DNA from: Azoarcus sp. L1K30
GTDB taxonomy: Bacteria; Pseudomonadota; Gammaproteobacteria; Burkholderiales; Rhodocyclaceae
DNA length: 64,000 bases
Assembly: GCF_018122735.1 (NCBI RefSeq)
Contig: NZ_JAGRRD010000001.1
Coordinates: forward strand, 706,382 to 770,381
Reading direction: 5' to 3'
The position numbers and the translations under genes were made by a program. The notes beneath the pieces were generated by a model. That model searched no databases and had not been told where the DNA came from. It saw only the letters and a program-made list of their open reading frames with translations. Shown piece after piece: positions 247 to 34,392 of this stretch (positions are counted from its first letter, which is position 1; each line of letters begins with the position of its first letter).

Positions 247-1527
247 TCAGCGCGCGTCGAGCCTCCACGAGACGCTTGAGGGGCGCCCGTCGAGCGCCAG
301 CCTGGCGGTGGCGGGCTCGGTGCGGGCAATGACCTTGCCCGCGCGCATCACCAGCAGCCGGGTCGCGCGCAAGCGCAGCGCCTCGACCGGGTCGCCCGCC
401 TGCAGCATGACAAGGTCGGCACGGTATCCGGGGGCAATGCCATAACCATCGAGGCCGAGGATAGCCGCCGCGGTGTCGGTAACCGCTGAATAGCACTGGC
501 GCATGGCTGCCTGGCCGGTCATTTGCGCAACATGCAGGCCCATGCTCGCGACTTCGAGCATGTCGCCGCTGCCCAGCGCGTACCAGGGGTCCATCACGCA
601 ATCGTGACCGAAGGCCACGGGGACGCCGGCGGCAAGCAGTTCGGGTACGCGGGTCATGCCGCGGCGCTTTGGATAGGTGTCGTGCCGGCCCTGCAGGGTG
701 ATGTTGATCAGCGGGTTGGCGATGGCGGCCACGCCTGCTTCGCGAATCAGCGGAATCAGTTTCGATACATAGTAGTTGTCCATCGAGTGCATCGAGGTGA
801 GATGCGAGCCTGCAACCCGGCCATGCAGCCCGAGCCGATGCGTGTGCTGGGCGAGGGTCTCGATATGGCGCGACATCGGATCGTCGCTCTCGTCGCAGTG
901 CATGTCGACGCGCAGGCCGCGCTCTGCGGCGAGCTCGCACAGGATGCGAACCGATTCGGCGCCGTCGGCCATGCTGCGCTCGAAATGTGGAATGCCGCCG
1001 ACCACGTCCACGCCCATGTCGAGGGCGCGGGTGAGGTTGGTGAGTGCGCCGGGCGCACGCAGTACGCCATCCTGCGGAAATGCCACCAGTTGCAGATCGA
1101 GATACGGCGCAACGCGGCGCTTCACTTCGAGCAGCGCTTCGACCGCCAGCAGGCGCGGGTCGCAGACGTCGACGTGTGAGCGGATGGCGAGCAGGCCCTT
1201 GGCCACCGCCCAGTCGCAGTAGGCCATGGCGCGTTCGATGATCGCATCCTGCGTGAGCAGGGGCTTGAGCTCACCCCACAGCGCGATGCCTTCGAGCAGG
1301 GTGCCGGACTGGTTGACGCGCGGCTGACCGTAGCTGAGTGTCGAGTCCATGTGAAAGTGCGGATCGACGAAGGGTGGGCTGACGAGCTGCCCGGCGGCGT
1401 CGATGACTTCGTGGGCATCGGCGACCAGCGAGCGTTCGACCGCAACGATGCGCCCGTCGAGGATGCCGATGTCGATCGGGCTGCGGCCATCGGGGAGCGA
1501 GGCATTGAGAATGATGACGTCGAGCAT
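247..1527 (-). CDS. codA: Cytosine deaminase (CodA-like amidohydrolase)
   Basis: A 426-residue metal-dependent amidohydrolase that should convert cytosine to uracil and ammonia in the cytoplasm. The metal ligands of the family are visible: HFH (H57, H59), H210 in MHCDE, E213, H242 and D309 in FGHDC, spaced as in E. coli CodA. Length matches that enzyme (about 427). It is the last gene of the nine-gene pyrimidine operon, 45 bases after a permease gene, so it would turn imported cytosine into uracil for Upp and the Urc proteins encoded at the front of the operon. A related substrate such as isocytosine or creatinine cannot be excluded. Confidence 0.9.
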   Translation of the reverse strand: MLDVIILNASLPDGRSPIDIGILDGRIVAVERSLVADAHEVIDAAGQLVSPPFVDPHFHMDSTLSYGQPRVNQSGTLLEGIALWGELKPLLTQDAIIERAMAYCDWAVAKGLLAIRSHVDVCDPRLLAVEALLEVKRRVAPYLDLQLVAFPQDGVLRAPGALTNLTRALDMGVDVVGGIPHFERSMADGAESVRILCELAAERGLRVDMHCDESDDPMSRHIETLAQHTHRLGLHGRVAGSHLTSMHSMDNYYVSKLIPLIREAGVAAIANPLINITLQGRHDTYPKRRGMTRVPELLAAGVPVAFGHDCVMDPWYALGSGDMLEVASMGLHVAQMTGQAAMRQCYSAVTDTAAAILGLDGYGIAPGYRADLVMLQAGDPVEALRLRATRLLVMRAGKVIARTEPATARLALDGRPSSVSWRLDAR

Positions 1528-1572
1528 GGGAGTCCCGGTATCTGTTTGGCTGTGGTGTCGGTTGGCGCCGGT

Positions 1573-2520
1573 TCAGCGCTCGCCCTTGCGATACGGCTTC
1601 ATCAGGGCCTGCGGATAGGCGGCGCGGCGGGCCATCACGATCAGGGCGAGGATGGACAGCAGGTAGGGCAGCATCAGGTAGATCTGGTAGGGCAGCGCGC
1701 CACCGGCCTGCTGCAGACGCAACTGAGCGGCATCGAAGGCGGCGAACAGCACGGCGCCGAGCAGGGCCTTGCCTGGCCGCCACGAGGCGAACACGACGAG
1801 CGCCACGCAGATCCAGCCGCGACCGTTGATCATGTTGAAGAAGAAGGCATTGAAGGCCGACAGGGTGAGGAAGGCCCCGGCCAGCCCCATCAGTATCGAC
1901 CCGGCGATGACTGCGCCGGTGCGAACGGCGATCACGTCCACGCCCTGGCCCTCGGCCGCGGCGGGATTTTCGCCGACCATGCGCAGCGCCAAGCCCATCG
2001 GTGTGCGATAGAGCAGGTAGGCGACGGTGGGCACGAGCGCGATCGCAAGCAGGGTCAGCGAAGTCTGCCCGGCCAGTACCGGGCCGATCAGCGGCAGGCC
2101 GGCCAGCCCTTCGAGCGGCGCAAAGGCCGTGACGGTGGGGGGCGTGCTGACTTGCGGAAAGCTGACCCGGTAGGCGAAGGCCGACAGGCTGGTGGCGAGC
2201 AGGGTCACGCCGAGCCCGGCCACGTGCTGCGACACCGTCAGCCACACGGTCAGCGCCGCGTGCAGTAGTCCGAACACGCCGCCGACCAGACCGGCCACCA
2301 GCACACCGGTCCACAGGTCGGCGCCGTTGAAGACCGCGAGCCAGCCGGTGAAGGCGCCGGCCACCATGATGCCTTCGATGCCGAGGTTGAGGACGCCGGC
2401 GCGCTCGCAGATCAGCACACCCAGGGTGCCGAGGATCAGCGGCGTGGCAACGCGCAGGGTGGCCACCCAGAAGGAGGCCGAGCCGAGCATGTCGAACAGG
2501 TTGGCGAGGAAGTCCATCAT
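1573..2520 (-). CDS. ABC transporter permease, BMP/nucleoside type (second subunit)
   Basis: A 315-residue inner-membrane permease of the BPD_transp_2 family, with about eight hydrophobic segments and the typical N-terminal motif ERAGVLNLGIEG. I start it at the MMDFLANLF methionine because its ATGA overlaps the stop of the upstream permease; the longer open frame upstream is a shadow of that gene. The pair resembles YufP/YufQ and NupP/NupQ nucleoside importers. In this operon a nucleobase or nucleoside substrate is likely but not proven. Confidence 0.88.
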   Translation of the reverse strand: MMDFLANLFDMLGSASFWVATLRVATPLILGTLGVLICERAGVLNLGIEGIMVAGAFTGWLAVFNGADLWTGVLVAGLVGGVFGLLHAALTVWLTVSQHVAGLGVTLLATSLSAFAYRVSFPQVSTPPTVTAFAPLEGLAGLPLIGPVLAGQTSLTLLAIALVPTVAYLLYRTPMGLALRMVGENPAAAEGQGVDVIAVRTGAVIAGSILMGLAGAFLTLSAFNAFFFNMINGRGWICVALVVFASWRPGKALLGAVLFAAFDAAQLRLQQAGGALPYQIYLMLPYLLSILALIVMARRAAYPQALMKPYRKGER

Positions 2521-3584
2521 GTGCGGCCCCAACGGAGGCGGTAGCGGGTGAGCAGCGTGGCCACCAGCATGGTGAGCAGGGCCGTGGCAACAATGACATC
2601 GGCGATGAAGTTGGGCACGCCCACCACCCGGCTCATGCTGTCGGCACCCACCTGCACGGCGGCGACGAAAAGCGCCGCCAGCAGCACGCCGAGCGGGTGC
2701 AGCCCGGCGAGCATGGCGATGACGATGCCGGCGTAGCCGTAGCCCGGTGACATGTCGGTGGTGACGTAGCTCGTGCGCCCGGCCACCTCGCCGACGCCGG
2801 CCAGCCCTGCCAGCGCGCCCGACAGCAGGGCGCACAGCAGTACCGTGCGCCCTACCGGCAAGCCGGCGAAGGCGGCAGCGCGGTGGTTGGCGCCGACTGC
2901 GCGCAGGGCGAAACCGAAGGTGGTGAAGCGTTCGATCAACCACACCAGGATGGCCAGCCCGCAGGCCATCAGCAGCCCGGTGTGCACCCGCGAGCGCTCG
3001 ATCAGACGGCTGAACTCGAGTTCGGGGTCGAGCGCTACCGACTGCGGCCAGCCCATGGCAAGCGGGTCTTTCATCGGCCCGTCCAGCATCATCGACACCA
3101 GCAGGAGGGCGACGAAGTTGAGCAAGAGTGTGGTGACGACTTCATCCACGCCGAGCTTCAGTTTCATCCACGCCGGCCCCAACAGCCACAGCGCACCGGC
3201 AGCCGCGCCGGCGGCGATCATCAGCGCGGACAGCAGCGGCAGCGGGAGGTCGAAGGTGCTGCCGCCGTGCATGCCGCCGACCGCGACCGCCGCCAGCGCG
3301 CCGAGATAGAGCTGGCCTTCGGCGCCGATGTTGAACAGACGGGCGCGAAAGGCGACCGCCGCAGCAAGCCCGGTGAGAATCAGCGGGGTGGCGCGGGTCA
3401 GGGTTTCGGCAAGGGCAAAGCGCGAGCCGAAAGCGCCATCGAAGAGCAGGGCATAGGTCTGGCCGACCGGCGCACCTGCCCAGGCTACAAGGAGTGCGCA
3501 CACGCCCAGTGTGACGAGCACGGCAACAATCGGGGCGAACAGCATTGCCCGCGGAGAGTACTCACTGCGTGATTCAAGCCGCAT
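2517..3584 (-). CDS. ABC transporter permease, BMP/nucleoside type (first subunit)
   Basis: A 355-residue permease paired with the one that follows. It has an N-terminal hydrophobic segment after a short cytoplasmic stretch, the family motif FRARLFNIGAEGQ, and around ten predicted membrane segments. Its start overlaps the end of the ATPase gene by 11 bases and its stop overlaps the next permease by four, showing tight translational coupling. Together with the double ATPase and the BMP binding protein it forms a complete importer, probably for pyrimidine bases or nucleosides given the neighbouring salvage genes. Confidence 0.88.
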   Translation of the reverse strand: MRLESRSEYSPRAMLFAPIVAVLVTLGVCALLVAWAGAPVGQTYALLFDGAFGSRFALAETLTRATPLILTGLAAAVAFRARLFNIGAEGQLYLGALAAVAVGGMHGGSTFDLPLPLLSALMIAAGAAAGALWLLGPAWMKLKLGVDEVVTTLLLNFVALLLVSMMLDGPMKDPLAMGWPQSVALDPELEFSRLIERSRVHTGLLMACGLAILVWLIERFTTFGFALRAVGANHRAAAFAGLPVGRTVLLCALLSGALAGLAGVGEVAGRTSYVTTDMSPGYGYAGIVIAMLAGLHPLGVLLAALFVAAVQVGADSMSRVVGVPNFIADVIVATALLTMLVATLLTRYRLRWGRT

Positions 3585-5130
3585 GCTGCGAGGCTCCTTT
3601 TGTGTCCGACGCGGCGCTTCCCGCCATGGCCAGGCCGACCGCGGCGCGGCTGCAGCCTTCGGTGGGCAAGGCGGGGCCGAGGCGGCCCTTGAACATCACC
3701 GCGATGCGGTCGGCGATGGCAAACAGTTCGTCGAGGTCTTCGGAGATCACCAGCACCGCGGCGCCGGCCGCGGCCGCATCGAGCAGGCAGCGATGAACAT
3801 AGGCCACCGCGCCGATATCCAGACCCCAGGTGGGCTGGTTGGCCACGATCAGGGTCGGGGTGACGTCGTCTCCGGCCACCGACAGCGCGCGGCCCAGGAT
3901 GAGTTTCTGCATGTTGCCGCCCGACAGCACCCGGGCGGGCACGTCGATACCCGACAGGCGCACGTCGAACTGCTCGACCAGCGTGCGGGTGAAGGCGCGG
4001 GCGGCCTTGCCGCGCACAATGCCGGCGCACGAGAAGGCGGGCAGGTGCAGGCGCTCCGACGCCGCGTTCTCCCACACCGGCAGGTCGCCCACCACGCCGA
4101 CCGCATGGCGGTCTTCCGGGATGCGGGCGACTCGGCGGGCGATCCAGTCGCGCGGATTGGCGCGCATGGCCTGCCCGCTGACGGACACCTCGCCGCTGTC
4201 TGCCGCGAGGGTGCCGCATAGCAGATCGGCCAGCGCCTGCTGTCCGTTGCCGGAGACGCCGGCAATGCCGACGATCTCTCCGGCGCGAACGACAAGGCTG
4301 AGGTCGTCGAGCAGGGTCTTGCCTCCCTGCGCCGCATGCACGCCGGACAGGTTCAGCACCATGTCGCCATGCGGTCGCGGTTCGCGGGTGGGCAGGGTCA
4401 CGCTGCGCCCCACCATGAGTTCGGCAAGTTCGGTCTTGGTGGTGTCTTCGGTGTTGCGCACGCTCACCAGCCGACCGCCGCGCAGCACCGCTACGCGTGC
4501 CGAGACGCGCAGCACTTCGTCGAGCTTGTGGCTGATGAAGATCACCGACAGGCCTTCGGCGACGAGGGTGGCGAGGGTGGCGAACAGGGATTCGCTTTCC
4601 TGTGGCGTCAGCACCGCGGTGGGTTCGTCCAGAATCAGGATGTGGGCACCGCGGTAGAGGGCCTTGAGGATCTCGACACGCTGGCGCTCGCCGACCGACA
4701 GCGCGGCCACGCGCGCGTCCGGATCGACGCCGAGACCGAAGCGCGCCGCGGTATGGAGCAGTCGTGCACGCGCGGCACGCCGGCGCGAAAACGGCAACCA
4801 TAGCGGCTCGGTGCCGAGCAGCACGTTGTCGAGCACGCTGAGATTGTCGGCAAGGGCGAAGTGTTGATGCACCATGCCCACGCCGGCGGCAAGCGCGGCT
4901 TTCGGGTTACCCGGCACCAGCGGCTGGCCGAAGACCTCGATGTGGCCTTCGTCGGCGACGTAATGCCCGAACAGGATGCTGACCAGCGTACTCTTGCCGG
5001 CGCCGTTCTCGCCGAGCAGGGCGAGCACTTCGCCAGTGCCGAGCTCGAGCGAGATGTCGTCGTTGGCCACCAGCTTGCCGAAGCGCTTGGTGATGTTTGC
5101 CAGGCGCAGGGCAGGCAGGCTTTCATTCAT
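3574..5130 (-). CDS. ABC transporter ATP-binding protein, two nucleotide-binding domains
   Basis: A 518-residue protein with two fused ABC ATPase domains, as usual in sugar/nucleoside importers (YufO, RbsA, MglA style). The first domain has Walker A GENGAGKST (around residue 39), signature LSVGERQRVEI and Walker B ILILDEPTAVLT. The second has a degenerate Walker A (GVSGNGQQ) and the signature LSGGNMQKL, the usual asymmetry of this family. It lies 12 bases downstream of the binding-protein gene and would energise the two permeases that follow. Confidence 0.9.
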   Translation of the reverse strand: MNESLPALRLANITKRFGKLVANDDISLELGTGEVLALLGENGAGKSTLVSILFGHYVADEGHIEVFGQPLVPGNPKAALAAGVGMVHQHFALADNLSVLDNVLLGTEPLWLPFSRRRAARARLLHTAARFGLGVDPDARVAALSVGERQRVEILKALYRGAHILILDEPTAVLTPQESESLFATLATLVAEGLSVIFISHKLDEVLRVSARVAVLRGGRLVSVRNTEDTTKTELAELMVGRSVTLPTREPRPHGDMVLNLSGVHAAQGGKTLLDDLSLVVRAGEIVGIAGVSGNGQQALADLLCGTLAADSGEVSVSGQAMRANPRDWIARRVARIPEDRHAVGVVGDLPVWENAASERLHLPAFSCAGIVRGKAARAFTRTLVEQFDVRLSGIDVPARVLSGGNMQKLILGRALSVAGDDVTPTLIVANQPTWGLDIGAVAYVHRCLLDAAAAGAAVLVISEDLDELFAIADRIAVMFKGRLGPALPTEGCSRAAVGLAMAGSAASDTKGASQHAA

Positions 5131-5142
5131 GATGCGCGATAC

Positions 5143-6138
5143 TCAGTTCGACTTCGGTTCGGCGTCATTCACCTTGACTGTGAAATTGCCGTCAAGAATG
5201 GCCTTTTCCTTCGCCTTCACCTTGGCGATGAGTTCAGCCGGCACCTTGGATTCGAAGGTCCCGAGCTTGGCCATCTCGCTGCCGCCGAATTTCATCGTCG
5301 AATACTTGCCATAGTCCTCGGCCTTGAAGCTGCCGGCCTTGACCATCTTGAGCGCGGTGTCGATGGTCGGTTCCATGTTCCACAGCGCCGAGGCGACCAC
5401 GGTATCGGGGTACTGCGCCTGGGTGTCGATGACGTTGCCGATGGCCAGCACGCCGCGTTCCTTGGCGGCGTCGGACACGCCGAAGCGCTCGGCGTACATC
5501 ACGTCCGCACCCCTGTCGATCATCGCAAATGCGGCTTCCTTCGCTTTCGGGGGATCGAACCACGAGCCGATGAAGCTGACGGTGAACTTTACCTTGGGGT
5601 TGATCTCGCGGGCGCCGTCCATGAAGGCATGCATCAGGCGATTGACCTCGGGGATGGGGTAGCCGCCGACCATGCCGATCTGGCCGCTCTTGCTCATGCC
5701 GGCGGCGATCATGCCGGTGAGGTAGGCTGGTTCCTGGATGTAATTGTCGAACACCGAAAAGTTGGGCGCCTGCGGCTTGCCCGATGAGCCGAGCAGGAAG
5801 GCCGTCTTCGGATAGTCGCGCGCGACCTTGCGCGCAGCGGCTTCAACCGCGAACGCCTCGCCCACGATGAGGCCCTTGCCCTGCTCGGCGTACTGCCGCA
5901 TGACGCGCTCGTAGTCGGCATTGGTGACGTTTTCGGAGAACACATACTCGATGTCGCCACGGGTCTGTGCCGCATTGAGCGCCTTGTGGATGCGCGACAC
6001 CCATTGTTGCTCGACGGGGACGGTGTAGATCGCCGCAACCTTGATCTTGTCCGCGGCGAAGGCGGGCAGCGGCAACAGGGCGGCAGCAGCCAGCGCAAGG
6101 CTCGAAGTCATCAGGGTGCGACGCATGCGATTGGTCAT
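5143..6138 (-). CDS. BMP-family periplasmic substrate-binding protein
   Basis: A 331-residue solute-binding protein of the BMP/PnrA family. It has a Sec signal peptide (twin Arg-rich start, hydrophobic core, AFA-A cleavage site near residue 28) and no lipobox cysteine, so it should be soluble in the periplasm. Motifs such as VGGYPIPEVNRLMHAF and ASALWNMEP are typical of the family. BMP proteins bind nucleosides, nucleobases or other purine/pyrimidine ligands; the surrounding uracil and cytosine genes suggest a pyrimidine ligand here. It leads the four-gene transporter block of the operon. Confidence 0.88.
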   Translation of the reverse strand: MTNRMRRTLMTSSLALAAAALLPLPAFAADKIKVAAIYTVPVEQQWVSRIHKALNAAQTRGDIEYVFSENVTNADYERVMRQYAEQGKGLIVGEAFAVEAAARKVARDYPKTAFLLGSSGKPQAPNFSVFDNYIQEPAYLTGMIAAGMSKSGQIGMVGGYPIPEVNRLMHAFMDGAREINPKVKFTVSFIGSWFDPPKAKEAAFAMIDRGADVMYAERFGVSDAAKERGVLAIGNVIDTQAQYPDTVVASALWNMEPTIDTALKMVKAGSFKAEDYGKYSTMKFGGSEMAKLGTFESKVPAELIAKVKAKEKAILDGNFTVKVNDAEPKSN

Positions 6139-6150
6139 CTTGGCTTCCTT

Positions 6151-6855
6151 TCAGTGAGTGGTGTTTGCGGGAGGCGGTGAAATGGTGGCGGCGCCATGTG
6201 CCGGGCAGGGCAGACCGCAGCTGCGCAGCACGACGGTGAGCACATGGGCGGTGGCACGTTCATGGTCCGGTGGTGACAGGCGGGTCTTGCCGAGCACGGC
6301 GCAGACCTGGCTGTCGAAGTCGGCATAGGTCTGGGTCGCGGCCCAGATGGTGAAGAACAGGTGGGTGGCATCCACCGGCAGGATCCGGCCTTCGGCGGCC
6401 CACTGGTCGATGACCGCCGCGCGCTTTTCCACCGTGCTGCGCAGCTCGGTGCGCAGGTATTCGCCGATATGGGTGGCGCCGTGCACGATCTCGTTGGCAA
6501 AGACGCGCGAAGCGTCGGGACGGCGCGCGCTCAGGCGCATCTTGGCGCGAACGTAGGCGCTCAGCGCGGTTGCGGGATCGGCGTCGGCGGTGATGCTTTC
6601 GGTTTCGGCCAGCCACAGGGCGAGGATGTTCGCGAGCACCGCGCGGTAGAGCGCTTCCTTGGACGCGAAGTAGTACAGCAAGGTGGCCTTGGGTACGCCG
6701 GCGACGTCGGCGATCTCGGCCATGGTGGCGCCCTGGAAGCCGGCCCGCGCGAACACCTTCTCGGCGGCCTTCAGCATTGCGCCCTCCTGGCGCTGGCGGA
6801 TGCGGCCCTTCAGCCGTGCGCCATCGTCCACACCTGTGTCGGCCTGAATGCTCAT
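6151..6855 (-). CDS. rutR: TetR-family regulator, RutR-like
   Basis: A 234-residue regulator with an N-terminal TetR helix-turn-helix (residues about 20-70, [10 protein letters not shown]) and a C-terminal ligand domain close to E. coli RutR, including an [11 protein letters not shown] stretch matching the uracil-sensing domain of that protein. RutR represses pyrimidine-degradation genes and lets go when uracil is bound. The start overlaps the stop of upp by four bases. A palindrome matching the RutR operator lies upstream of the first operon gene, so I infer autogenous control by uracil. Confidence 0.85.
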
Positions 6856-7484
6856 CGTGTGCCGAACAGGCGGTCGCCCGCATCGCCGAGGCCGGGCACG
6901 ATGTAACCGTGCTCGTTGAGGTGGCTGTCGATCGATGCGGTAAAAATGGGGACGTCGGGGTGTTCGCGGGCCAGGGTCTCCAAGCCCTCCGGTGCCGCCA
7001 GCAGACAGACGAACTTGATGCTGCTGACGCCGTCCTCCTTGAGTCGGGAAAGTGCCGCGCTCGCCGAGTTGCCGGTGGCCAGCATGGGGTCAACCAGGAT
7101 GACCTGTCGCTCGTCGATATCGGACGGCACCTTATAGTAGTACTCGATCGCCTCGAGCGTTTCCGGATCGCGATAGAGTCCGATGTGGCCGACACGTGCA
7201 CCGGGCAGCAACTCGACCATGCCATCGAGCATGCCGTTACCGGCGCGCATGATGGCGATCAGGCACAGTTTCTTGCCGCTGATGACTGGCGCCTCGCAGT
7301 CGGCCACCGGCGTCGTGACCGGGACCAGTTCGGTGGCGAGGTCGCGCGTGACCTCGTAGGCCATCATCGCCGCAATCTCGCGCACGACGCGGCGGAAATT
7401 GTCGGTGGTGGTGTCCGCGTTGCGCAGGATCGTCAGCTTGTGCTGCATCAGCGGATGATCGATCTCGGTGACCTTGGGGTGCAT
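6852..7484 (-). CDS. upp: Uracil phosphoribosyltransferase
   Basis: A 210-residue enzyme that joins uracil to PRPP to make UMP. The PRPP loop [11 protein letters not shown] and the C-terminal uracil site [13 protein letters not shown] are intact, and length is normal for Upp. In the fungal URC pathway the same reaction (Urc6) is the first step of uracil breakdown, and here the gene sits between urc4 and the regulator gene. It may therefore serve catabolism rather than only salvage; a second housekeeping copy elsewhere in the genome would support that. Confidence 0.95.
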
Positions 7485-7511
7485 CGCGTCTCTCCGTGGC
7501 TGGGTACGGGG

Positions 7512-8765
7512 TCAGAAAACGGTGCCATCACTGATGATGGTGAGCGGTGGCACGCCTCCGGCCCGGCGCTGCGCGGCGATGCGGCGTCCGGCCGACCAGG
7601 TGCCGCCCTGCAGGACCTTGGGCAGCGGGAACTGAGCCTCGTCGACACCCAGTTCGGCACGTACGGCGTTCGCAATGCGGTCGAGTCCGATCACGGTGAG
7701 CGCCCGCCACTCGACGATGGGGGGAGAATCCACCCGCCATGGCGTGGTCCAGAACTCAGCGCTGCGGGGGCGGATCACGCCGAGATCGAGCAGCAGGCCG
7801 CCATTGCGATATTCGGGCAGCCCCGTCAGTGCGTCGAGTCCGCGCACCTTGAGACCTGCGGCATCGAGCGGTTCCAGCAGCGAATAGGTGAGCCACTGCG
7901 TGAGCTTGTGGAAAGGCAGCAATTCGTCTTCCAGTGCCGGGTGGTGCCAGCAATCGCCCAGGGAAATGCCCTGCAGGCTGATCCGTCCCGGCCATACCGG
8001 CCCGAGCGCCTTGAGCAGCGTGGCGAGGATGAACTCCGCATCGATTTCGCCGCGATCGGCATGCGCGAACAAGTAATCGACAAGATTGCCGAGACGGGCA
8101 GGCTCGCCGAACACGGCGGGTGTGCCCGAGATCACTTCGCCCAGGCGGCGCAACAGGCCGGCACGGCCTTCGAGACCGACGAGCGGATTGTCTTCGCTTT
8201 CCTGAAAAGCGGTGGCCAGTCGATCGGCCGTCAGGCGGCTCAGGGCTGCCGCGTCGCTGCGCAACGGGCGCCCGGGTGCGTCGGAGAGGAGGCCGGCGGC
8301 AAACAGCTCGATACTGGCAACGGCCAGGCCCTCGGACCGCACATGGACCTGAGCATTGGCTTCGTCGCGGAAATGCCAGTCTGGACCGGCGCCGGCGTCG
8401 AGGAGCACGCTGGGTACGACGAGGTCGATGGCGATGCGGGCGATTTCGCGCTCGTCCGCCGCATGCGACATGGCGCGCAGCGCCTGCCAGCGATCGACGC
8501 CGCCAGCCTCGAAATGCCGCCAGCGGCTATGGTAGGGTACTTCTAGGTTCGGATAGTCGTGACGGATGGTGTCGGCCACATATAGCGCGGCACCGGGCAG
8601 GGCCTCCGCCCGCCACTCGAAAAACGACGAGCGGCCGCTTTCGACCGCCGCCATCACGGCCGCACAGCGCTTGCGCACCGCCTTCGCGCTCAGCAGTGCC
8701 GTCGCCGGATGGCCGATCGGAACCGGGGCGTACCATCCGGAGTTGGCGCGCGCTGCAGCGTTCAT
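7512..8765 (-). CDS. urc4: Urc4-like protein (DUF1688), uracil catabolism
   Basis: A 417-residue protein recognised as a DUF1688/URC4 homologue by its overall sequence and its neighbours. URC4 is genetically required for uracil breakdown in the yeast Lachancea kluyveri; the exact reaction is not settled. No signal peptide or membrane segment is seen, so it is cytoplasmic. Its start overlaps the stop of the urc1 gene by four bases and upp follows after 27 bases, so the three core URC functions are co-translated. Identification rests on family resemblance, not on a catalytic motif. Confidence 0.82.
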   Translation of the reverse strand: MNAAARANSGWYAPVPIGHPATALLSAKAVRKRCAAVMAAVESGRSSFFEWRAEALPGAALYVADTIRHDYPNLEVPYHSRWRHFEAGGVDRWQALRAMSHAADEREIARIAIDLVVPSVLLDAGAGPDWHFRDEANAQVHVRSEGLAVASIELFAAGLLSDAPGRPLRSDAAALSRLTADRLATAFQESEDNPLVGLEGRAGLLRRLGEVISGTPAVFGEPARLGNLVDYLFAHADRGEIDAEFILATLLKALGPVWPGRISLQGISLGDCWHHPALEDELLPFHKLTQWLTYSLLEPLDAAGLKVRGLDALTGLPEYRNGGLLLDLGVIRPRSAEFWTTPWRVDSPPIVEWRALTVIGLDRIANAVRAELGVDEAQFPLPKVLQGGTWSAGRRIAAQRRAGGVPPLTIISDGTVF

Positions 8766-10003
8766 TCGTTCAGCCCCCGGCCTTTCGGCTGCAGAAGTTC
8801 CGCGGCCTGTGGCGCCCCGCTCGGGGAAAAATAGCCGGCTGCCATCTTGGCATCCATTTCGACCCGCGCATCGGCTGGAATTAGTTCGTCGGGAATGGCG
8901 ACCTGCTCGACGATGTCGATGCCGGCGGACACCAGCGCATTGCGCTTCATGTCACTCATCGACGCCCAACGGTCGATACGGCTGATGCCGAGCCAGTGGA
9001 AGACGTCAGGCATCAGTTCCTGGAAACGCATGTCCTGTACGCCGGCCACACATTCGGTGCGGGCGAAATAGGTCTCGGCGCGGTCGCCGCCCTTTTGCCG
9101 TTTGCGTGCGTTGTACACCAGGAACTTGGTCACCTCGCCGAGGGCCCGGCCTTCCTTGCGGTTGTACACCACGAGTCCGACACCGCCCTGCTGGGCCATT
9201 TCAATGCAGATTTCAATGCCATGGGCGAGATAGGGGCGGCAGGTACAGATGTCGGAGCCGAAGACGTCGGAGCCGTTGCATTCGTCGTGAACCCTGCACG
9301 CGACCCGGGTGTCGGGCAGCCCGAGCTTTTCCACGTCACCGAACATGTACAGCGTCATGCCGCCGATGGGGGGCAGGAAGACCTTGAGGTCGGGCCGCGT
9401 GATGAGCTCGGGAAACATGCCCGCAGTCTGCTCGAACAGCGTGCGGCGCAATTCGCGCTCGCCGATGCCGAAGCGCTCGGCAATGCCGGGCAGGTACCAG
9501 ACCGGATCGATCGCGGCCTTGGTGACCTTGACGTCGCCATTGGCAGTAAGGATGTCGCCATCGGGCTTGAGCCGCCCGGCAGCGATCGCCGCCACCAGTT
9601 CGGGCATGTTGATGTGAGCCTTGGTGACCGCGATGGTCGGGCGAATGTCGATGCCCGCTGCCAGCAGATGCCCGAATTCGTCCGCAACGCGGTGACCCCA
9701 GGGATCGAAGGACACGATCTTCTTCGGATCGCTCCACTGCGGATGCGGGCCGATTTCGGCGGCGGGGAGCGTGTTCGATAGATCTGGCCGGTGCGTGCTC
9801 TGCAGGTTGCCGGCTGCCACTGCCAGGGCCCGATACAGCGAATAGGCCCCGGAGTGGGTGCCGATCACGTTGCGCTGTGCCGGGTCGCTGAGGCTGGCGA
9901 CGAAAGGGCCGCGTTCGCGTGCGGTGGGCGCCCCCCATCTGACCGTATGGTAGAGGCCGGTGCGGGTTCTGGGATGCGAGGTCAACACGATGTGGGACGC
10001 CAT
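8762..10003 (-). CDS. urc1: Urc1-like GTP cyclohydrolase II family protein, uracil catabolism
   Basis: A 413-residue protein whose C-terminal half is a RibA-type domain. The three zinc cysteines are present with RibA spacing (C242, C253, C255 in HDECNGSDVF and ICTC). A long N-terminal extension of about 200 residues, absent from RibA, is typical of URC1 and its bacterial relatives. URC1 is thought to act on the pyrimidine ring of UMP rather than on GTP. It is the promoter-proximal gene of the operon, with an AGGAG ribosome site and a RutR-like operator upstream. A riboflavin role is less likely because no other rib gene is near. Confidence 0.85.
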   Translation of the reverse strand: MASHIVLTSHPRTRTGLYHTVRWGAPTARERGPFVASLSDPAQRNVIGTHSGAYSLYRALAVAAGNLQSTHRPDLSNTLPAAEIGPHPQWSDPKKIVSFDPWGHRVADEFGHLLAAGIDIRPTIAVTKAHINMPELVAAIAAGRLKPDGDILTANGDVKVTKAAIDPVWYLPGIAERFGIGERELRRTLFEQTAGMFPELITRPDLKVFLPPIGGMTLYMFGDVEKLGLPDTRVACRVHDECNGSDVFGSDICTCRPYLAHGIEICIEMAQQGGVGLVVYNRKEGRALGEVTKFLVYNARKRQKGGDRAETYFARTECVAGVQDMRFQELMPDVFHWLGISRIDRWASMSDMKRNALVSAGIDIVEQVAIPDELIPADARVEMDAKMAAGYFSPSGAPQAAELLQPKGRGLNE

Positions 10004-10033
10004 GGCACGCTCCTGTAACCGGGAGGAAAAAAC

Positions 10034-10049
10034 CTGACCAGATGGTCAG
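10034..10049. promoter_or_regulatory. RutR-type operator upstream of the urc operon
   Basis: CTGACCAGATGGTCAG is a perfect palindrome apart from its central GA, and its TGACCA-NN-TGGTCA core equals the published E. coli RutR consensus. It lies 31-46 bases before the urc1 start, just downstream of a possible -10 box (TATGCT on the minus strand, about 10057-10062), a position suited to repression. The regulator gene inside the operon is RutR-like. Binding itself is inferred. Confidence 0.8.
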
Positions 10050-10223
10050 TTTCAGCATAGCGAATTTCGTGCCATCCCAAAAGCCCTGTTTTTGCGTGGA
10101 GCGGGCATCGAGGCGGGCACCGAATGCGTGCCAGAAGGGTTTGTGCGCGTTTGCGATGCACGTCGGCGGTGCGCTGGACAGCACCTTTCAGTGCAGGCTA
10201 ACGGGCCGGGGTGGCTCCTTTTT
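10050..10223. other. Intergenic stretch upstream of the urc operator
   Basis: About 170 bases between the urc operator and the first palindromic repeat. It should hold the rest of the urc promoter close to the operator. No convincing reading frame, RNA gene or terminator is seen in the remainder. Confidence 0.5.
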
Positions 10224-10640
10224 CTCCCTCCCCTTCAAGGGGAGGGCTGGGGTGGGGATGGGTTTGAAATGCCGCCGACGTAACCCATCCCCCTCCCAAC
10301 CTCCCCCTTGAAGGGGGAGGAGAAAACCGGAGCCCATCCGAACGTCATTAGCAGGCCCCTTCCCCTTCAAGGGGAAGGACAGGATGGGGATGGGTTCGGT
10401 GGCGAGCCCTCGAAACCCATCCCCACCCCAGCCCGGTGGCCAGCGCAGAGACGCGCTGTCGTTCGAGCGGCAGCAAGTGACGCTCGCTGAAACCCCGTTC
10501 TCACCCCCTTGAAGGGTAGTGAGCAAAAGGCCGTCCACCCGAACCTGATTGGCTGGTTCCTTCCCTTTTCCTGAACATACAAGGGGGAGGAGGTCCGTTC
10601 TTTTCAGTGAACATACCAAGGGGAAGGCACCAGAAAACTG
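10224..10640. repeat. Dispersed palindromic repeat cluster, copy 2
   Basis: Two inverted pairs of the GC-rich palindrome occur in a row (about 10224-10321 and 10355-10526), followed by two GAACATAC-type tail modules ending in AAGGGGGAGG or AAGGGGAAGG. The second pair is interrupted by a module containing GAGACGCGCTGTCGTTCGAG and ending in TCACCCCCTTGAAGGG, which recurs in the copy near 34.2 kb. No gene is supported between 10004 and 10738. Confidence 0.85.
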
Positions 10641-24610: not shown

Positions 24611-25053
24611 CCGTTCAGGGAAAGAACGGAGTCTCTCCCTTTTCGAGTGGGCATGGCCGGGGTTTTCACAGAGCATTCCCCGTTGCCGGCTTAGCGGAGA
24701 GGCTTTGCCGAGACGACCCATAGAGACGGGAATGGGTTCCGTTGGCGGCACTTCAAACCCATCCCCCTCCCAACCTCCCCCTTGAAGGGGGAGGAGCTCT
24801 GTTCTTGCCCTTTCCTGGAACATACAAGGAGAAGGAACCTACTAAAAAGAATGAACCCGCGAAGGCGAGGGAACCGGCTAATGAGGGTCGGGGGGGCTCG
24901 TCTCCCCCTCGTCTTCAGGGGTAAAGGTGGGGTTTCGTGAAGCGTCGTTCGCTGCCGCCTGAACGGCAGCCTCGTGGCGATGGCTGTCGGGTTGGGGTGG
25001 CACCGTTTGGCTCCCTCCCCTTCAAGGGGAGGGCTGGGGTGGGGATGGGTTTC
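24611..25053. repeat. Dispersed palindromic repeat cluster, copy 4
   Basis: Two blocks are seen. 24611-24837 has the CTTTGCCGAGACGACCCATA middle module, a GGATGGGTTT-type inverted arm, a perfect palindrome and the GGAACATACAAGG tail. 24895-25053 has degraded arms, a GAACGGCAGC module and a perfect palindrome followed by GCTGGGGTGGGGATGGGTT. The gap from 24592 to 25126 has no supported gene. Confidence 0.85.
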
Positions 25054-29254: not shown

Positions 29255-32044
29255 CTACAGTGCCCGCGTCAACACGCCGATCGGCGGTGCCCATTCCTCG
29301 GCGGGCGGTTTTTTCCGTGTGACCAGCGTGAGCTGCGCCGGTGCGAACACGTTGGCGTTGTGGGTCACCGGGGTGGTGATCAGGTATTGCGCGCGGGTGG
29401 CGCGCAGGAAGGTGCCGACGCGGTCGATGTTGGCGACGTCGAGGTGGGCGAAGGGTTCGTCGATGAAGACGAATCCGCCGGGGCGGGCGTCGTCCATCAG
29501 CAGGGCGATGAGCAGGATCAGCGACTTCATCACCTGCTGGCCGCCGGAGGCTTCGCCGTCGTTGAGGCCGACGGCGCCCTTGCGGTCGAAGTCGAAGCGC
29601 ACTTCGAGGCCGGCGGCGCCGAGCGAGACGTCGTCGTTTTCCAGGTGCGGGGTGGGGCAGTCGACGCTGACGTTGGAGAGGTCGCCGAGCGACTTCAGGT
29701 TCTTGCCGTACTGGCGCACCGTGGCGCGCAGCTTGGCGATGTACGCGGCACGCGCTTCGTCGGTATGGCGGCTGGCGGTGGCGCAGTAGGCCTGGCGGTC
29801 GGCATAGTCGCGCTCGCGGGTGCGCAGGTCGGCGGTGATGCGGTCGCGCAGCGTGAGCACCGAGACGTCGGTGATCCAGTCGCCCTCATCGAGGTGGCGG
29901 TGCAGGCGCTCGAGTTGCAGGCGGGCGCCGCGGGCGTCGCCGTATTTGTCGGCGAGCAGCGCGATGTCGGCGTGGTCCATCCAGTGTGCGGGCATGCCGC
30001 GACGGCGGCGGCGCAGCTTGACGATGCGCTGGGCCTGGGCGTGGCGGCGCGGGGCGTGTTCGCGGGCGATGTCGGCCAGGCGCAGCTCGACGGCCTTCTG
30101 CTCGCGGTGGCGGCGGTCGAGTTCGATCTCGATGCCACGCAGTTTCTCGGCGACTTCGTCGAGTGCGCCGCGGGCCTCGGCACGCTCGGCGATGGCTTCG
30201 GTGAGCGCCTTGGTGGCGGCGGGCAGTTCGGCTTCGGCGCTGGCGTACTTCTCGGTGTTGGCGGCGAGCAGCTGGGCCGATTGCAGGCCGAGCAGGCGCT
30301 GGCGGATGCCGGTGAGGGTGTTGCCGGCGGCGTCGAGCCTGGGGCGGATGGCTTGCAGCTGCTTGTCCAGCTGGGCGATTTCGTCTTCGAGATCGTCGAT
30401 GCGCGACTGGCGGGCGAGTTCGCCGAAGTGGAAGTCGTGCGGGCGGCCGAGGTGGCGGGCGCCGCGGCGTTCGCGGTGGTAGGCGTCGCGGGTGATCCAT
30501 TCCTGCTCGCGCGGCAGGTCGTGCGCGGCGTCGGCATCTTCCACGCGGCGGATGCGGTTGAGCAGGTCGGTGAGCCAGCGCGGCACCGGGGCGCTGAAGT
30601 TGACCACTTCGGCCAGGCTCATCGGGCGCGGCGGCGGGGCGGTTTCGCGCTCGGGCACGACGAAGTGGCGGAAGCGCTCGCGCTCGCCCAGCGCCCAGGC
30701 GGCATGACGGTCGGATTCGCGCTCGAGCAGAATCACATGCCGGTAGGGGCGCAGGATGGCTTCGATGGCCACTTGCCACGCCGGGTCGGTGATTTCGACC
30801 ACTTCGGCCAGGCCCTGGTGGCCGATGCCTTCGGCCGACAGCGTGGCGCGGAAGCGGCTGACCTCGACGTCGCCCGGGGGGCCACTGCGGCTGCGCGCGG
30901 CACGCAGTTGTTCGCTCTTTTCCTCGAACGCGGCAAGCAGTTCGCGCTCCTTGCGGCGCAGGGCGAGCAGGGCGGCGTCGGCCGCCTCGTGTTCCTTCTC
31001 GAGGGCGACGGCGTCGGCGCCGTGTTCGGCGGCGAGTTGGGTGCGCAGCGCGTCGCGCTCGGCCAGCGTCTTCTCGATGTCGCGCACACGGTCGTGGGCG
31101 GCCAGGTGGCGCTGTTCGGCGTCCTTGTCGTGCTGCTTGAGGCGGTTGCGCTCGGCGGCTGCGGCCTGCTGTTCGGTCTGGATGTCGGCGACGCGGTTGC
31201 GGGCGTCGCGCTGTTCTGCGAGCTTGCTGGCGCGCTCGCGGTTCAGGCGCAGCAGTTCGTCGCGCTCGGTGGCGACTTCGCGGCTGAGTTCGGCACATTC
31301 GAGGCGCGGCACGATCTCGGCTTCCAGGGCATGGATCTCGTCGCTGAGCTGCTTCCATTCCAGGAAACGGTCGGCTTCGAGGCGCTTGGTTTCGGCCTGG
31401 GCGCGCAGGCGGTCGAGGTCGATGCCGAGCGATTCGAGCTCGCGTTCGGCGTTCTTCTGTTCTTCGCGGGCAGCAGCGTAGTTGTCGAGCACTTCCTTGT
31501 CGCCGAAGACGTCGAACACCAGTTCGAGCAGGGCCTTGGGCGAGTACTCGCACAGCTTGTCGGTGTCGCCCTGTTCCAGCGACAGGACCTTGGCGATGGC
31601 CGGGGTGAGTCCGCCCCAGGCCAGCCGCGTCTGGTAGTCGCGCAGGCCGGTCCAGTCGGAGGAGGTTTCGAGCGCTTCGATGGACAGGTTGCCGTCGACG
31701 ATGGCGTAGTCGCGCGTCCATTCGCCGCCGCTTTTGCGGATGCGGCAGGCCAGCGTGACCTCGTCGGACAGGCACGGAAAGAAGGGGCGGCGCCCATTGG
31801 TGCCGGGGACGTTGGCGACCACGGCACGAATCCATGCGAAGCTGCGCTCGGCGCGGCGCACGTAGCGGCGGAAGTCGCGCTTGCCTGAGCAGCGCAGCGC
31901 GAACAGCGTGCGCATGGCGTCGAGGAGGGTGGTCTTGCCGGAGCCATTAGGGCCGACGATGGTGATGATCTGGGCGTCCAGCGGCAGGCTGAAACGGCGC
32001 CAGTAGTCCCAGTGGACCAGTTCGAGCGTCTTGATGTGGAACAT
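29255..32044 (-). CDS. mksB: SMC-type ATPase of a condensin-like complex (MksB/JetC-like)
   Basis: A 929-residue SMC-architecture ATPase: N-terminal head with Walker A GPNGSGKTT (31-39), coiled coil about 180-395, hinge about 405-540, returning coiled coil about 545-770 and C-terminal head with signature SGGQ (833-836), Walker B FVFIDEP (858-864) and HLD D-loop. It is much shorter than bacterial SMC (about 1,170) or MukB, and close in size to MksB. The hinge (GHQGLAEVVEITDPAW) looks like a canonical SMC hinge rather than the reduced MukB one. It follows the MukE-like gene after five bases and should form a DNA-loop-extruding complex with it and the kleisin-like protein. Confidence 0.82.
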   Translation of the reverse strand: MFHIKTLELVHWDYWRRFSLPLDAQIITIVGPNGSGKTTLLDAMRTLFALRCSGKRDFRRYVRRAERSFAWIRAVVANVPGTNGRRPFFPCLSDEVTLACRIRKSGGEWTRDYAIVDGNLSIEALETSSDWTGLRDYQTRLAWGGLTPAIAKVLSLEQGDTDKLCEYSPKALLELVFDVFGDKEVLDNYAAAREEQKNAERELESLGIDLDRLRAQAETKRLEADRFLEWKQLSDEIHALEAEIVPRLECAELSREVATERDELLRLNRERASKLAEQRDARNRVADIQTEQQAAAAERNRLKQHDKDAEQRHLAAHDRVRDIEKTLAERDALRTQLAAEHGADAVALEKEHEAADAALLALRRKERELLAAFEEKSEQLRAARSRSGPPGDVEVSRFRATLSAEGIGHQGLAEVVEITDPAWQVAIEAILRPYRHVILLERESDRHAAWALGERERFRHFVVPERETAPPPRPMSLAEVVNFSAPVPRWLTDLLNRIRRVEDADAAHDLPREQEWITRDAYHRERRGARHLGRPHDFHFGELARQSRIDDLEDEIAQLDKQLQAIRPRLDAAGNTLTGIRQRLLGLQSAQLLAANTEKYASAEAELPAATKALTEAIAERAEARGALDEVAEKLRGIEIELDRRHREQKAVELRLADIAREHAPRRHAQAQRIVKLRRRRRGMPAHWMDHADIALLADKYGDARGARLQLERLHRHLDEGDWITDVSVLTLRDRITADLRTRERDYADRQAYCATASRHTDEARAAYIAKLRATVRQYGKNLKSLGDLSNVSVDCPTPHLENDDVSLGAAGLEVRFDFDRKGAVGLNDGEASGGQQVMKSLILLIALLMDDARPGGFVFIDEPFAHLDVANIDRVGTFLRATRAQYLITTPVTHNANVFAPAQLTLVTRKKPPAEEWAPPIGVLTRAL

Positions 32045-32049
32045 CGTGA

Positions 32050-32763
32050 TCAGTCTTCCGTGTCTTCGTCGGGCAGGTCGTCGTCGGGAAGCACGTCGGC
32101 GGCGTCGAAGGCGTTGGCTTTGGGGAGGGCATGGCCGGCTTCTGCGAGCACGTCGGCGAGGGTGCCGTGGATGATGCGATCGGCGAGCAGGCGGTAGTCG
32201 AGGGCGACGTCGAGCAGCGGGCCTTCGAGGATCTGGCCGTTGCGGCGCTCGATGAAGCCGAGGCGGGCGAGCTTGCCGAGGGCGAAATTGCGCACCTTGG
32301 TCTTGCCGCCGAGACGGGCGCCGAAATCTGCGATCAGCGAGGCTTCGGACAGGCCGGCGGAGACGGCGTCGCCGTGCTGTACCGGCTTTTCGCCACCGAA
32401 CATGTCGGTCTGGCCGTCGTCGATGACGTCGCGGCGGGTGACCTGGCGCTCGCGCTTGGGCAGCACGATGAGCGACCAGATGATGACCAGCAGGGCGATC
32501 TCGTCGCGTGTGAGGCCGAGATTGCTGGCGGCGTATTCGCGCGTGGCACCGAACACCGGTTCGTGCATGTCGGCGTTGAGGCCGACGGCGACGTGCGCGG
32601 CGTAGGGATTGTCGAGCAGGCGCAGGCCGACGGCGGCAAGGCGGCGGTCGAGGTCTTGGCGGAAGGTCTCATCGACCAGCGCGCGCCGCACCAGGCGGTC
32701 GGTGCGCGGCAACCAGCGCTGGTTGAGCAGGCGCGCGGTGAGGGTTTGCAGTTCGTGTTCCAT
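32050..32763 (-). CDS. mksE: MukE/MksE-like winged-helix subunit of the condensin-like complex
   Basis: A 237-residue protein with winged-helix character, e.g. SEASLIADFGARLGGKTKVRNFALGKLARLGFIER (split here only for description; about residues 140-175), and an acidic C-terminus rich in Asp and Glu. Length and position between a kleisin-like and an SMC gene match MksE/MukE/JetB subunits, which bind the kleisin. The start shares one base with the stop of the upstream gene (TGATG), a sign of coupled translation. The assignment rests mainly on architecture and context. Confidence 0.72.
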   Translation of the reverse strand: MEHELQTLTARLLNQRWLPRTDRLVRRALVDETFRQDLDRRLAAVGLRLLDNPYAAHVAVGLNADMHEPVFGATREYAASNLGLTRDEIALLVIIWSLIVLPKRERQVTRRDVIDDGQTDMFGGEKPVQHGDAVSAGLSEASLIADFGARLGGKTKVRNFALGKLARLGFIERRNGQILEGPLLDVALDYRLLADRIIHGTLADVLAEAGHALPKANAFDAADVLPDDDLPDEDTED

Positions 32764-34067
32764 CAGGTCTCCGTGGCGGAGGAGGTCTCCGCGGGGCGGG
32801 CGCCGGCGTGGGCCAGGCGGATCTCGCCCGCGGTCATGCGTGCAATTTCGTCTTCGTCGACGTCGACCAGTTGGTCGGTGAACTCGATCTGCAGCGGCAG
32901 ACGCATGAACTGGCCGACAGGGCCATCGGCGGGCCCGCCTGCGCCGCCGTCGGCAAGCAGCGCGAGCAGTGACAGGCGGTAGCTTGCGGCGGCGAAACCA
33001 CCACCGCCCACCATGGCGTGCAGCGGCGCGGCGCGCTGCAGCTGTTCGAGTCGATGGCCGAAGTGCTCGAGCAGGCGCAGGTCCTCGTGCTCGGGTGCGA
33101 TCGAGGTCGGGGCGTCATCGGCGGCGGGCAGTTCGGCTGCGGCGGCCTTGTCGTGGGTCTCGCCACCGAGCGCGGCTTCGGCACGGTCGAGCAGTTCGTG
33201 GCCGCCGGCAAGGAAGGCGGGCGCAGGGGCGGCGTCGAGCGCACCGAGGACGAGGTCGGCGAGGCGGCCGGCGTCCTGGTGGCGCAGCCAGGCCGAGACG
33301 TCGGAGGACGAAATGCCCGAGCCGCCCAAGGTCACGCGCTGGGTCTCGATCTTGTTGAGCGCGCGCTGGAAGGCGGCGTCCACGCGGGCGAGGCGGGATT
33401 GCGCCAGCCCGATGCGCTGGGCCACGCGGGCGATCTCGAAATCCACTTCGGGGTCGGACAACAGTTCGCGCAGGATGTCGGTGCCGCGCTCGAGCCAGCG
33501 CCCGTTGGCCTTCAGGCGGCTGCGGGCGGTGACGATGCGGAACTCCGAGCCCGAGGCGATGGCCTCCTCGAAGTGCCAGGTGAGATCGTTGAGCTTGGAG
33601 AGCAGGTGGCTGAGCGCGTCGGGTGTGATGCTGCCGGTGGCGCTGAGGCCGGCGAGCTGCGCGGTGAGAAAGCCGAGCTCGGCGTCCTCCTCTGCGCTGA
33701 AACGCAGCAGCATCGACAGTGCGGCGACGGCGTTGCGTCCCATGTCGGACAGGTGATACAGGCCGTCATCGGCGAAGGCCAGCAGGTCGTGCTCGCGCAG
33801 GCGCTTGAGCACGGTTTCGAGCTTGACCGGATCGAGATAGGCAAAGCGCCGCCTCAGTGCGTCCGGCGACCAGCGCGGGGCGTCCGCTTCCTGCCCGATC
33901 TCGCGCAGCACCAGCAGGCGCAGCAGGACCTCGGCGTCGGAGCCGCGAAACAGCGAGATGAAGGTGCCGACGATTCCGCGCGCAGCCAGCAGCGGCGCGA
34001 TCTCGGGCACGTCGTCGGCACTGACGCCGGGGGCGAAGAAGTCGGCGAGATTGAGCAGTGGATTCAA
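32763..34067 (-). CDS. mksF: Kleisin-like subunit of the condensin-like complex (MksF/MukF/JetA-like)
   Basis: About 434 residues from a proposed TTG start. The N-terminal third contains a winged helix (DAEVLLRLLVLREIG to YHLSDMGRNAVAALSML), then a helical middle (about 130-260) and an acidic, Ala-rich C-terminal part. Position first in the operon matches MksF/JetA. The open frame extends upstream through a palindromic repeat, which I exclude as it translates to repeat-derived sequence. Alternative start: GTG at 34127. A tiny upstream frame overlaps the TTG, so a frameshift at the true 5' end is also possible. Confidence 0.68.
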   Translation of the reverse strand: MNPLLNLADFFAPGVSADDVPEIAPLLAARGIVGTFISLFRGSDAEVLLRLLVLREIGQEADAPRWSPDALRRRFAYLDPVKLETVLKRLREHDLLAFADDGLYHLSDMGRNAVAALSMLLRFSAEEDAELGFLTAQLAGLSATGSITPDALSHLLSKLNDLTWHFEEAIASGSEFRIVTARSRLKANGRWLERGTDILRELLSDPEVDFEIARVAQRIGLAQSRLARVDAAFQRALNKIETQRVTLGGSGISSSDVSAWLRHQDAGRLADLVLGALDAAPAPAFLAGGHELLDRAEAALGGETHDKAAAAELPAADDAPTSIAPEHEDLRLLEHFGHRLEQLQRAAPLHAMVGGGGFAAASYRLSLLALLADGGAGGPADGPVGQFMRLPLQIEFTDQLVDVDEDEIARMTAGEIRLAHAGARPAETSSATET

Positions 34068-34114
34068 GGTCGTCGAGGGGTGGCAGTTAGGTCGTCTTGG
34101 AACACGGTAGTCAT
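34064..34114 (-). CDS. Possible 16-codon leader peptide coupled to the kleisin-like gene
   Basis: ATG with a well-placed GGAG seven bases upstream opens a short frame (MTTVFQDDLTATPRRP) whose TGA overlaps the proposed TTG start in a TTGA arrangement. It may be a leader that delivers ribosomes to the weak TTG start, or the true N-terminus of the kleisin-like protein separated by a frameshift. Confidence 0.35.
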   Translation of the reverse strand: MTTVFQDDLTATPRRP

Positions 34115-34184
34115 TGGAGTTCTCCACCCCTGCCAACTGGTCCAAAGGAAAGCGAAGAGCAGGTTCGGGTGGGTAGCTCTTTGC

Positions 34185-34392
34185 TCCCTCCCCTTCAAGG
34201 GGGTGAGAGCGGGGTTTCAGCGAGCATCGCTCGCTGCCGCTCGAACGACAGCGCGTCTCTGCGCCGGCTACCGGGTTGGGGTGGGGATGGGTTTCAAGTG
34301 TTTCCAACCAAAACCCATCCCCCTCCCAACCTCCCCCTTGAAGGGGGAGGCGTTCCGTTCTTGCCTTTTCCTTGACCATACAAGGGGAGGGC
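34185..34392. repeat. Dispersed palindromic repeat, copy 5
   Basis: A full-length pair: palindrome with CTCCCCTTCAAGGGGGTG, the module with GAACGACAGCGCGTCTCTGC also present at 10.4 kb, the GGATGGGTTT arms in inverted orientation, a perfect palindrome and the TGACCATACAAGGGG tail. It fills the gap between prfB and the condensin-like operon, so the operon promoter must lie in or beside it. Confidence 0.85.

Follow-up and report, generated by a model that had tools for sequence, protein, structure and literature searches.

In fungi, uracil can be broken down by the URC pathway, which involves URC1, URC4 and URC6 of Lachancea kluyveri and urg1, urg3 and urg2 of Schizosaccharomyces pombe, the S. 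pombe urg genes being clustered according to passages of the fungal literature. URC1 and URC4 are described, in the passages concerned, as conserved across bacteria and fungi, and a passage of a yeast metabolic-model paper states that URC4 degrades ribosylurea to urea (PMC7530994). Another paper cites for this pathway, at the level of its title, a UTP cyclohydrolase study (Zhang et al. 2021, cited in PMC12507026). Here we analyse a stretch of 64,000 nucleotides from Azoarcus sp. L1K30 (contig NZ_JAGRRD010000001.1, positions 706,382 to 770,381; hereafter the window), in which Urc1, a DUF1688 protein (Urc4) and a uracil phosphoribosyltransferase (Upp), the components shared with the fungal pathway as those passages describe it, are encoded together. 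Unlike the fungal system, the window holds a single bacterial operon that also includes an ABC importer, a TetR-family regulator and a cytosine deaminase.

We consider it very probable that this operon carries out URC-type breakdown of uracil for nitrogen. This kind of operon is already known, and the parts worth following are the predicted fold of Urc4 and the layout of the promoter region. With moderate confidence, we favour a joint proposal: that Urc4 is a distant N-glycosylase of the Qng1 superfamily, which would act on ribosylurea-5'-phosphate through E318 and K287, and that the URC operon, separately from the rut operon, gained a switch combining sigma-54/NtrC control with a RutR-type response to uracil.

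The operon consists of nine contiguous, colinear genes on the minus strand, every one an intact frame, running from position 10003 to 247 of the window. From the first gene onwards these are; urc1 (8762-10003, 413 amino acids), encoding a Urc1/UTP cyclohydrolase-like protein with GTP_CH_N and GTP_cyclohydro2 domains; urc4 (7512-8765, 417 amino acids), encoding the DUF1688 protein, whose predicted fold is like that of Qng1/DUF2419 N-glycosylases; upp (6852-7484, 210 amino acids); the gene for a RutR-like TetR-family regulator (6151-6855, 234 amino acids) with a C-terminal PF08362 domain; the genes for a BMP/PnrA-type substrate-binding protein (5143-6138, 331 amino acids), an importer ATPase (3574-5130, 518 amino acids), permease 1 (2517-3584, 355 amino acids) and permease 2 (1573-2520); and codA, encoding cytosine deaminase (247-1527, 426 amino acids). 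From urc1 to codA the junctions measure -4, 27, -4, 12, 12, -11, -4 and 45 bp, where negative values are overlaps. The four-base overlaps reported in the initial annotation are therefore present between urc1 and urc4, between upp and the regulator gene and between the two permease genes, whereas urc4 and upp are separated by 27 bp. NCBIfam and Pfam scans confirmed the families that had been assigned, with Urc1 matching NF005536 (765 bits against a cut-off of 403) as well as PF12471 and PF00925, Urc4 matching PF07958 (485 against 25), Upp matching NF001097 (289 against 114) and cytosine deaminase matching NF005748 (810 against 438). The importer has its full set of parts, a PF02608 binding protein, an ABC_tran ATPase and two BPD_transp_2 permeases; however, to call the operon as a whole complete, as was done initially, is too strong because the urea and C3 steps are encoded elsewhere in the genome. 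The genes past codA and past urc1 look unrelated by eye. The locus is best read as a uracil operon of the URC type that brings its own regulator and importer, and this initial interpretation is supported.

DUF1688 is still labelled as of unknown function in Pfam, and a phmmer search with the Urc4 sequence alone gave no significant match among solved chains, the best being an unrelated ligase (E 0.64). A structural model of Urc4 built from 63 aligned sequences has a mean predicted local distance difference test score (pLDDT) of 93.5 and a predicted template modelling score (pTM) of 0.91. When this model was compared with the Protein Data Bank (PDB) using Foldseek, all 11 matches at E ≤ 0.001 were to queuosine-5'-monophosphate glycosylase Qng1/DUF2419 (E 3.4e-9 to 1.8e-7), including two chains from human, and the twelfth PDB match reached only E 0.94. 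The template modelling (TM) score against the DUF2419 chains was 0.58-0.60 by query length. In a viral fold library nothing was found at E ≤ 0.001, with endonuclease III the best match (E 0.18). At the level of sequence, a Urc4 profile searched against the chain sequences up to E 10 returned four matches, all of them DUF2419, and the Pfam family Q_salvage was matched by 18 of the 63 Urc4 sequences (best E 1.6e-5), no other foreign Pfam family being matched by more than two. A search for the Q_salvage family itself in 398 genomes of Pseudomonadota detected none, but no control matched either.

In the alignment, with positions counted on the printout, K199 of Qng1 pairs with K287 of Urc4 and D231 with E318, and both Urc4 residues are invariant in all 63 sequences. 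We take K199 and D231 to be catalytic in Qng1 from their having been mutated in deposited structures, as the 7ulc chain carries N at 231, in agreement with its title, and 7u5a is titled K199C. The two proteins are thus alike in predicted fold and in the positions of a lysine and a carboxylate, but share 14-20% identity, Urc4 has a glutamate where Qng1 has an aspartate, and Urc4 is longer (417 residues, against 315-344 in solved Qng1/DUF2419 chains). Entry titles show that Qng1 structures were solved with queuosine-5'-monophosphate (Q-MP), and a passage of the literature states that Qng1 cleaves the base from queuosine (Q) or Q-MP (PMC11130926). Action on Q-MP fits a 5'-phosphorylated N-riboside as the substrate of Urc4, which may hydrolyse ribosylurea-5'-phosphate to urea and ribose-5-phosphate. 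The Qng1-like fold of the model therefore suggests a mechanism for one core step of the URC pathway. Among the papers listed we found none pairing DUF1688 with Qng1, although our search left out most subscription papers and novelty is thus unproven; in one paper on queuosine glycosylase/DUF2419, DUF1688 is not named in the passages available.

Urc1 aligns over its full length with 7eev and 7ej3 (E 2e-180), which are deposited as GTP cyclohydrolase II, as is also the NCBIfam label of Urc1. We take both entries to belong to the 2021 UTP cyclohydrolase study, in which case the window protein matches a bacterial UTP cyclohydrolase from end to end. The initial statement that the bacterial chemistry is little studied should accordingly be softened, since a UTP cyclohydrolase has been studied, as the title of that work indicates. 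Urc1 has the architecture expected of such an enzyme, a GTP_CH_N domain with a cyclohydrolase-II domain bearing three conserved cysteines, and shares with chain 2bz0, a GTP cyclohydrolase II, both these cysteines and the RxEGR motif. The cysteines of such a domain bind zinc. GTP cyclohydrolase II releases pyrophosphate and, if Urc1 does likewise, its product would be the 5'-monophosphate expected by a Qng1-like Urc4.

The regulator resembles RutR, as had been proposed, but falls below the cut-offs of the NCBIfam RutR equivalog models (195 bits against 368, and 166 against 230). Within the genome it stands alone as a strong RutR relative (195 bits, with the next at 44). The motif WAxTQTYADF, which we presume to have a role in RutR-type uracil binding, is kept in 20 of 20 regulators and nearly kept in the RutR chain 6z1b. 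The window regulator may sense uracil. A RutR-type operator palindrome, CTGACCAGATGGTCAG or CTGACCA(GA)TGGTCAG, is found at the urc1 promoter at 10034-10049, and its end coincides exactly with that of the interval first annotated (247-10049). It is a palindrome of the TGACCAnnTGGTCA type, which is the E. coli consensus, with two mismatches to the E. coli RutR site. Its core, TGACCANNTGGTCA, occurs exactly only once in the 4.98 Mb genome, at this locus. The operator is conserved together with the regulator; TGACC-N4-GGTCA stands upstream of urc1 in 19 of the 20 loci with the regulator (the window and 19 relatives) and in none of 56 loci with urc1 but without the regulator, and is seen, besides Cupriavidus, in Zoogloea, Azoarcus, Caldimonas and three loci from metagenome-assembled genomes. 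When one mismatch was allowed, the genome gave 11 matches to the core and 13 to the reversed pattern, and since the 10 inexact core matches are no more than chance we claim no wider regulon.

Further upstream, at 10060-10074 on the minus strand, lies a sigma-54-type promoter, TGGCACGAAATTCGC, which agrees at 10 of 11 positions with the consensus TGGCACG-N4-TTGC and has the GG/GC spacing. Of the 20 regulator loci, 14 carry a site with at least 10 of 11 positions (mean of shuffles 0.1, largest of 30 shuffles 1) and all 20 one with at least 9 (mean 2.3, largest 5). For loci without the regulator, where one of the 76 urc1 loci was dropped for its short upstream stretch, the corresponding counts are 5 of 55 (mean 0.5, largest 2) and 6 of 55, the latter being at the level of chance (mean 4.6, largest 9). 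Two NtrC-like sites are tentatively placed upstream of urc1 from their sequence, both on the minus strand; CGCACCGCCGACGTGCA at 10157-10173, with 10 of 12 positions of the consensus, and the weak GGCACGCATTCGGTGCC at 10116-10132, with 9 of 12. At 10 or more positions such sites occur in 8 of 20 regulator loci (mean 0.5, largest 3) and in 1 of 55 others, which is chance (1.3 expected); at 9 or more they occur in 18 of 20, yet shuffles give a mean of 5.8 and a largest value of 11, and the 11 of 55 other loci are again at chance (9.3). NtrC itself is present in the genome (699 bits against a cut-off of 558.6), and no sigma-70-type promoter was found within 9900-10400. Transcription from sigma-54 promoters starts about 12 bases past the GC element, so that the operator covers the expected start. 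The natural reading is that the regulator represses the operon and that uracil releases it, a direction of regulation that would follow from this arrangement.

It is also useful to compare this layout with the rut operon of E. coli, which is under nitrogen control via NtrC. Both systems have a RutR-family regulator, an operator of the same type and uracil as nitrogen source. However, in the Azoarcus genome RutA is below cut-off and a different ring-opening enzyme is used, and the regulator gene lies inside the operon, whereas passages on E. coli place it divergently. Regulation of the E. coli rut operon by RutR is, in the passages of one source, assumed or predicted (PMC8113886). As a separate observation, a different palindrome, CTCCCCTTGAAGGGGAG, is present in the window at 78-94, 10228-10244, 10360-10376, 25015-25031 and 34188-34204, with two of the copies upstream of the urc promoter region; eight strand matches were counted with two mismatches or fewer, against a mean of 0.02 in shuffles.

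DUF1688 proteins are found in many bacteria and in fungi. A comparison of their gene neighbourhoods, which had been proposed with the initial annotation, bears out the grouping of the core genes. DUF1688 is present in 26 of the 398 genomes of Pseudomonadota (our own included), and urc1 adjoins urc4 in 26 of 26 of these loci, which argues that the grouping is not due to chance; upp lies inside the 1.5 kb flanks in 23, and one of the three misses is at a contig edge. A scan of named genomes gave at least 578 confirmed urc4 loci, of which the best 80, mostly Pseudomonadota and Cyanobacteria as judged by their titles, were kept for comparison, so that the counts over these 80 lean to near relatives. 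By tblastn, 75 of them have urc1, in every case upstream of urc4 on the same strand, and 73 have upp; matches to codA were obtained in 24, to the binding protein in 22 and to the regulator in 19. All three core genes are present in 70, each at 50% identity or more in 60, and a contig end explains the missing core gene in four (L088, L099, L115 and L119). The full set of nine, with order and strand unchanged and each gene at 50% identity or more, is found in 10 loci, nine of Cupriavidus and one of Caldimonas caldifontis (L048-L050, L052-L057 and L103), which as far as compared differ from the window operon by sequence divergence only. The Cupriavidus species include C. pinatubonensis (L053) and C. 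basilensis (L048). Two alignments were made, one joining the window to 21 of the phylum sample's 25 other loci, and one joining it to 62 of the 80 loci; the remaining 18, of which many are closely related to loci that were included, were excluded by hand.

Some loci show other surroundings. Six cyanobacterial urc loci (L071, L073, L074, L077, L079 and L110) have a distant BMP-type importer (26-42% identity), encoded near urc4-upp on the opposite strand, and the pairing of urc genes with an importer may thus be old or have arisen repeatedly. The locus of Microvirga (L104) is near genes that by eye are phosphopentomutase-like and purine nucleoside phosphorylase-like, the cluster of each occurring in 5 of the 80 loci, and is perhaps part of a wider region for nucleoside breakdown.

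The remaining steps of the route appear to be available elsewhere in the genome. In line with the initial expectation that genes for urea handling lie outside the window, a urease alpha subunit was matched (961 bits against a cut-off of 680), unlinked to the operon, which would give the cell a route from urea to ammonia, the other urease genes being recognised by eye only. Yeast, according to passages on its pathway, uses urea amidolyase instead. A methylmalonate-semialdehyde dehydrogenase is also present (662 bits against 448.5). Another uracil pathway in the genome, which would have undermined the initial annotation, was not found as far as searched. The Rut pathway is not supported, since the best RutA match is far under its cut-off (154 against 498.3 bits), and the reductive pathway is not supported by the one enzyme searched, dihydropyrimidine dehydrogenase of the PreA type, for which the best match to the PreA subunit reached 48.5 bits against 335 and covered only profile positions 306-411. 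The oxidative pathway family PF09663 had no match in the genome, but no control genome matched either.

From the genes, their order and families, the invariant residues, the conserved sites and the predicted fold we infer the following scheme of substrates, products and catalytic roles. The BMP-type importer would take up uracil and/or cytosine, cytosine deaminase would convert cytosine to uracil and ammonia, and Upp would convert uracil to UMP, which housekeeping kinases would raise to UTP if that is the substrate of Urc1, as the name published for its relative implies. Being related to GTP cyclohydrolase II, Urc1 would then open the ring hydrolytically to give malonate semialdehyde (C3) and ribosylurea-5'-phosphate. 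Urc4 would cut the N-glycosidic bond of the latter, yielding ribose-5-phosphate and urea; E318 would be the putative catalytic carboxylate, and K287 would lie beside it. The urease encoded elsewhere would free the remaining ammonia, and methylmalonate-semialdehyde dehydrogenase could take the C3 unit. Transcription would start from a single promoter of the sigma-54 type, which NtrC probably activates when nitrogen is limiting, with the RutR-like repressor occupying the operator over the expected start until released by uracil.

A number of observations weigh against this scheme and are best considered together with the alternatives. Neither the urease nor the C3 enzyme is encoded near the operon, and the genome has one gene of the hydantoinase/dihydropyrimidinase type (G000:C1:2609513-2610886, 530 bits against a cut-off of 393), although its neighbourhood of TRAP transporters and a GntR-type regulator is by eye unrelated. 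Two of the best 80 loci (L078 and L101) have no upp despite full flanks, and in four (L100, L107, L117 and L122) urc4 stands without a urc1 match, with 8.5-10 kb of upstream sequence present and no masked bases. Upp and CodA are by family ordinary salvage enzymes when taken by themselves, and the operon might therefore serve pyrimidine salvage or detoxification rather than nitrogen supply. We think this very unlikely, as Urc1 and Urc4 destroy the base according to the yeast passages, and the sigma-54-type promoter and NtrC-like sites indicate nitrogen control. More room should be left, within uracil breakdown for nitrogen, for an importer that carries another substrate (nucleosides, purine bases or another heterocycle) and whose place in the operon is secondary. 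The nearest solved binding proteins are named otherwise, as atrazine periplasmic binding protein and basic membrane lipoprotein, and a binding protein with at least 50% identity accompanies only 15 of the best 80 urc loci; yet in 10 of them the importer genes are flanked by the regulator gene and codA with the order unchanged, and because no operon gene scans as a nucleoside-cleaving enzyme, free bases suit Upp and CodA best. We thus regard another substrate as a rather doubtful alternative, and uracil and/or cytosine as the ligand to which the gene context points.

For Urc4, it might be argued that the protein is not an N-glycosylase but acts elsewhere in the same route, for example to complete ring opening, and that the Qng1-like fold is a shared scaffold only. 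The window's own Urc4 has no match to Q_salvage, the sequence profile reaches DUF2419 chains only at E 0.01-0.12, which is weak by itself, and phmmer with the window sequence recovered no DUF2419 chain. K287 and E318 were, moreover, matched by sequence alignment and not by superposed coordinates, and the model gives a fold with no bound substrate. Against a mere scaffold, each of two deposited Qng1 mutants carries its change at a residue that corresponds to an invariant Urc4 position, and the conversion of ribosylurea to urea ascribed to URC4 in the yeast passage is an N-glycosidic cleavage. A role other than N-glycosylase is for us unlikely. The proposed switch has its own difficulties, as its sites are identified by their match to sigma-54, NtrC and E. 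coli RutR consensuses, one locus (L051) has the regulator but no operator, and Cupriavidus supplies 12 of the 20 regulator loci, which means that the counts of site conservation are not independent. The operator palindrome of the window is also picked up by a terminator scan, as a 6-pair stem that scores as terminator-like because the run TTTTTT follows it, and on this basis it could form a hairpin for attenuation or termination and not be a repressor site. However, only 2 of 19 loci retain such a T run (five or more T within the 10 bases that follow), whereas the palindrome itself follows the presence of the regulator, and we give the hairpin hardly any credence beside a RutR-type operator.

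Elsewhere in the window, three adjacent minus-strand genes (29255-34379) resemble a condensin-type (SMC-like) set. The 929-amino acid protein of the set matches 50 families of the ATPase type, among them JetC models, which it matches weakly (E 5e-26, 89 bits), whereas the two adjacent proteins, of 237 and 538 amino acids, have no PADLOC match; the set could be a Wadjet-like or Mks-type relative.

The predicted fold of Urc4, together with two candidate residues, makes a poorly understood core step of the URC pathway directly testable, and would link this step to the enzymes that salvage queuine from nucleotides. Similarly, the promoter layout, with its single exact operator core in the genome, provides a testable model for how a bacterium may combine its need for nitrogen with the supply of uracil.

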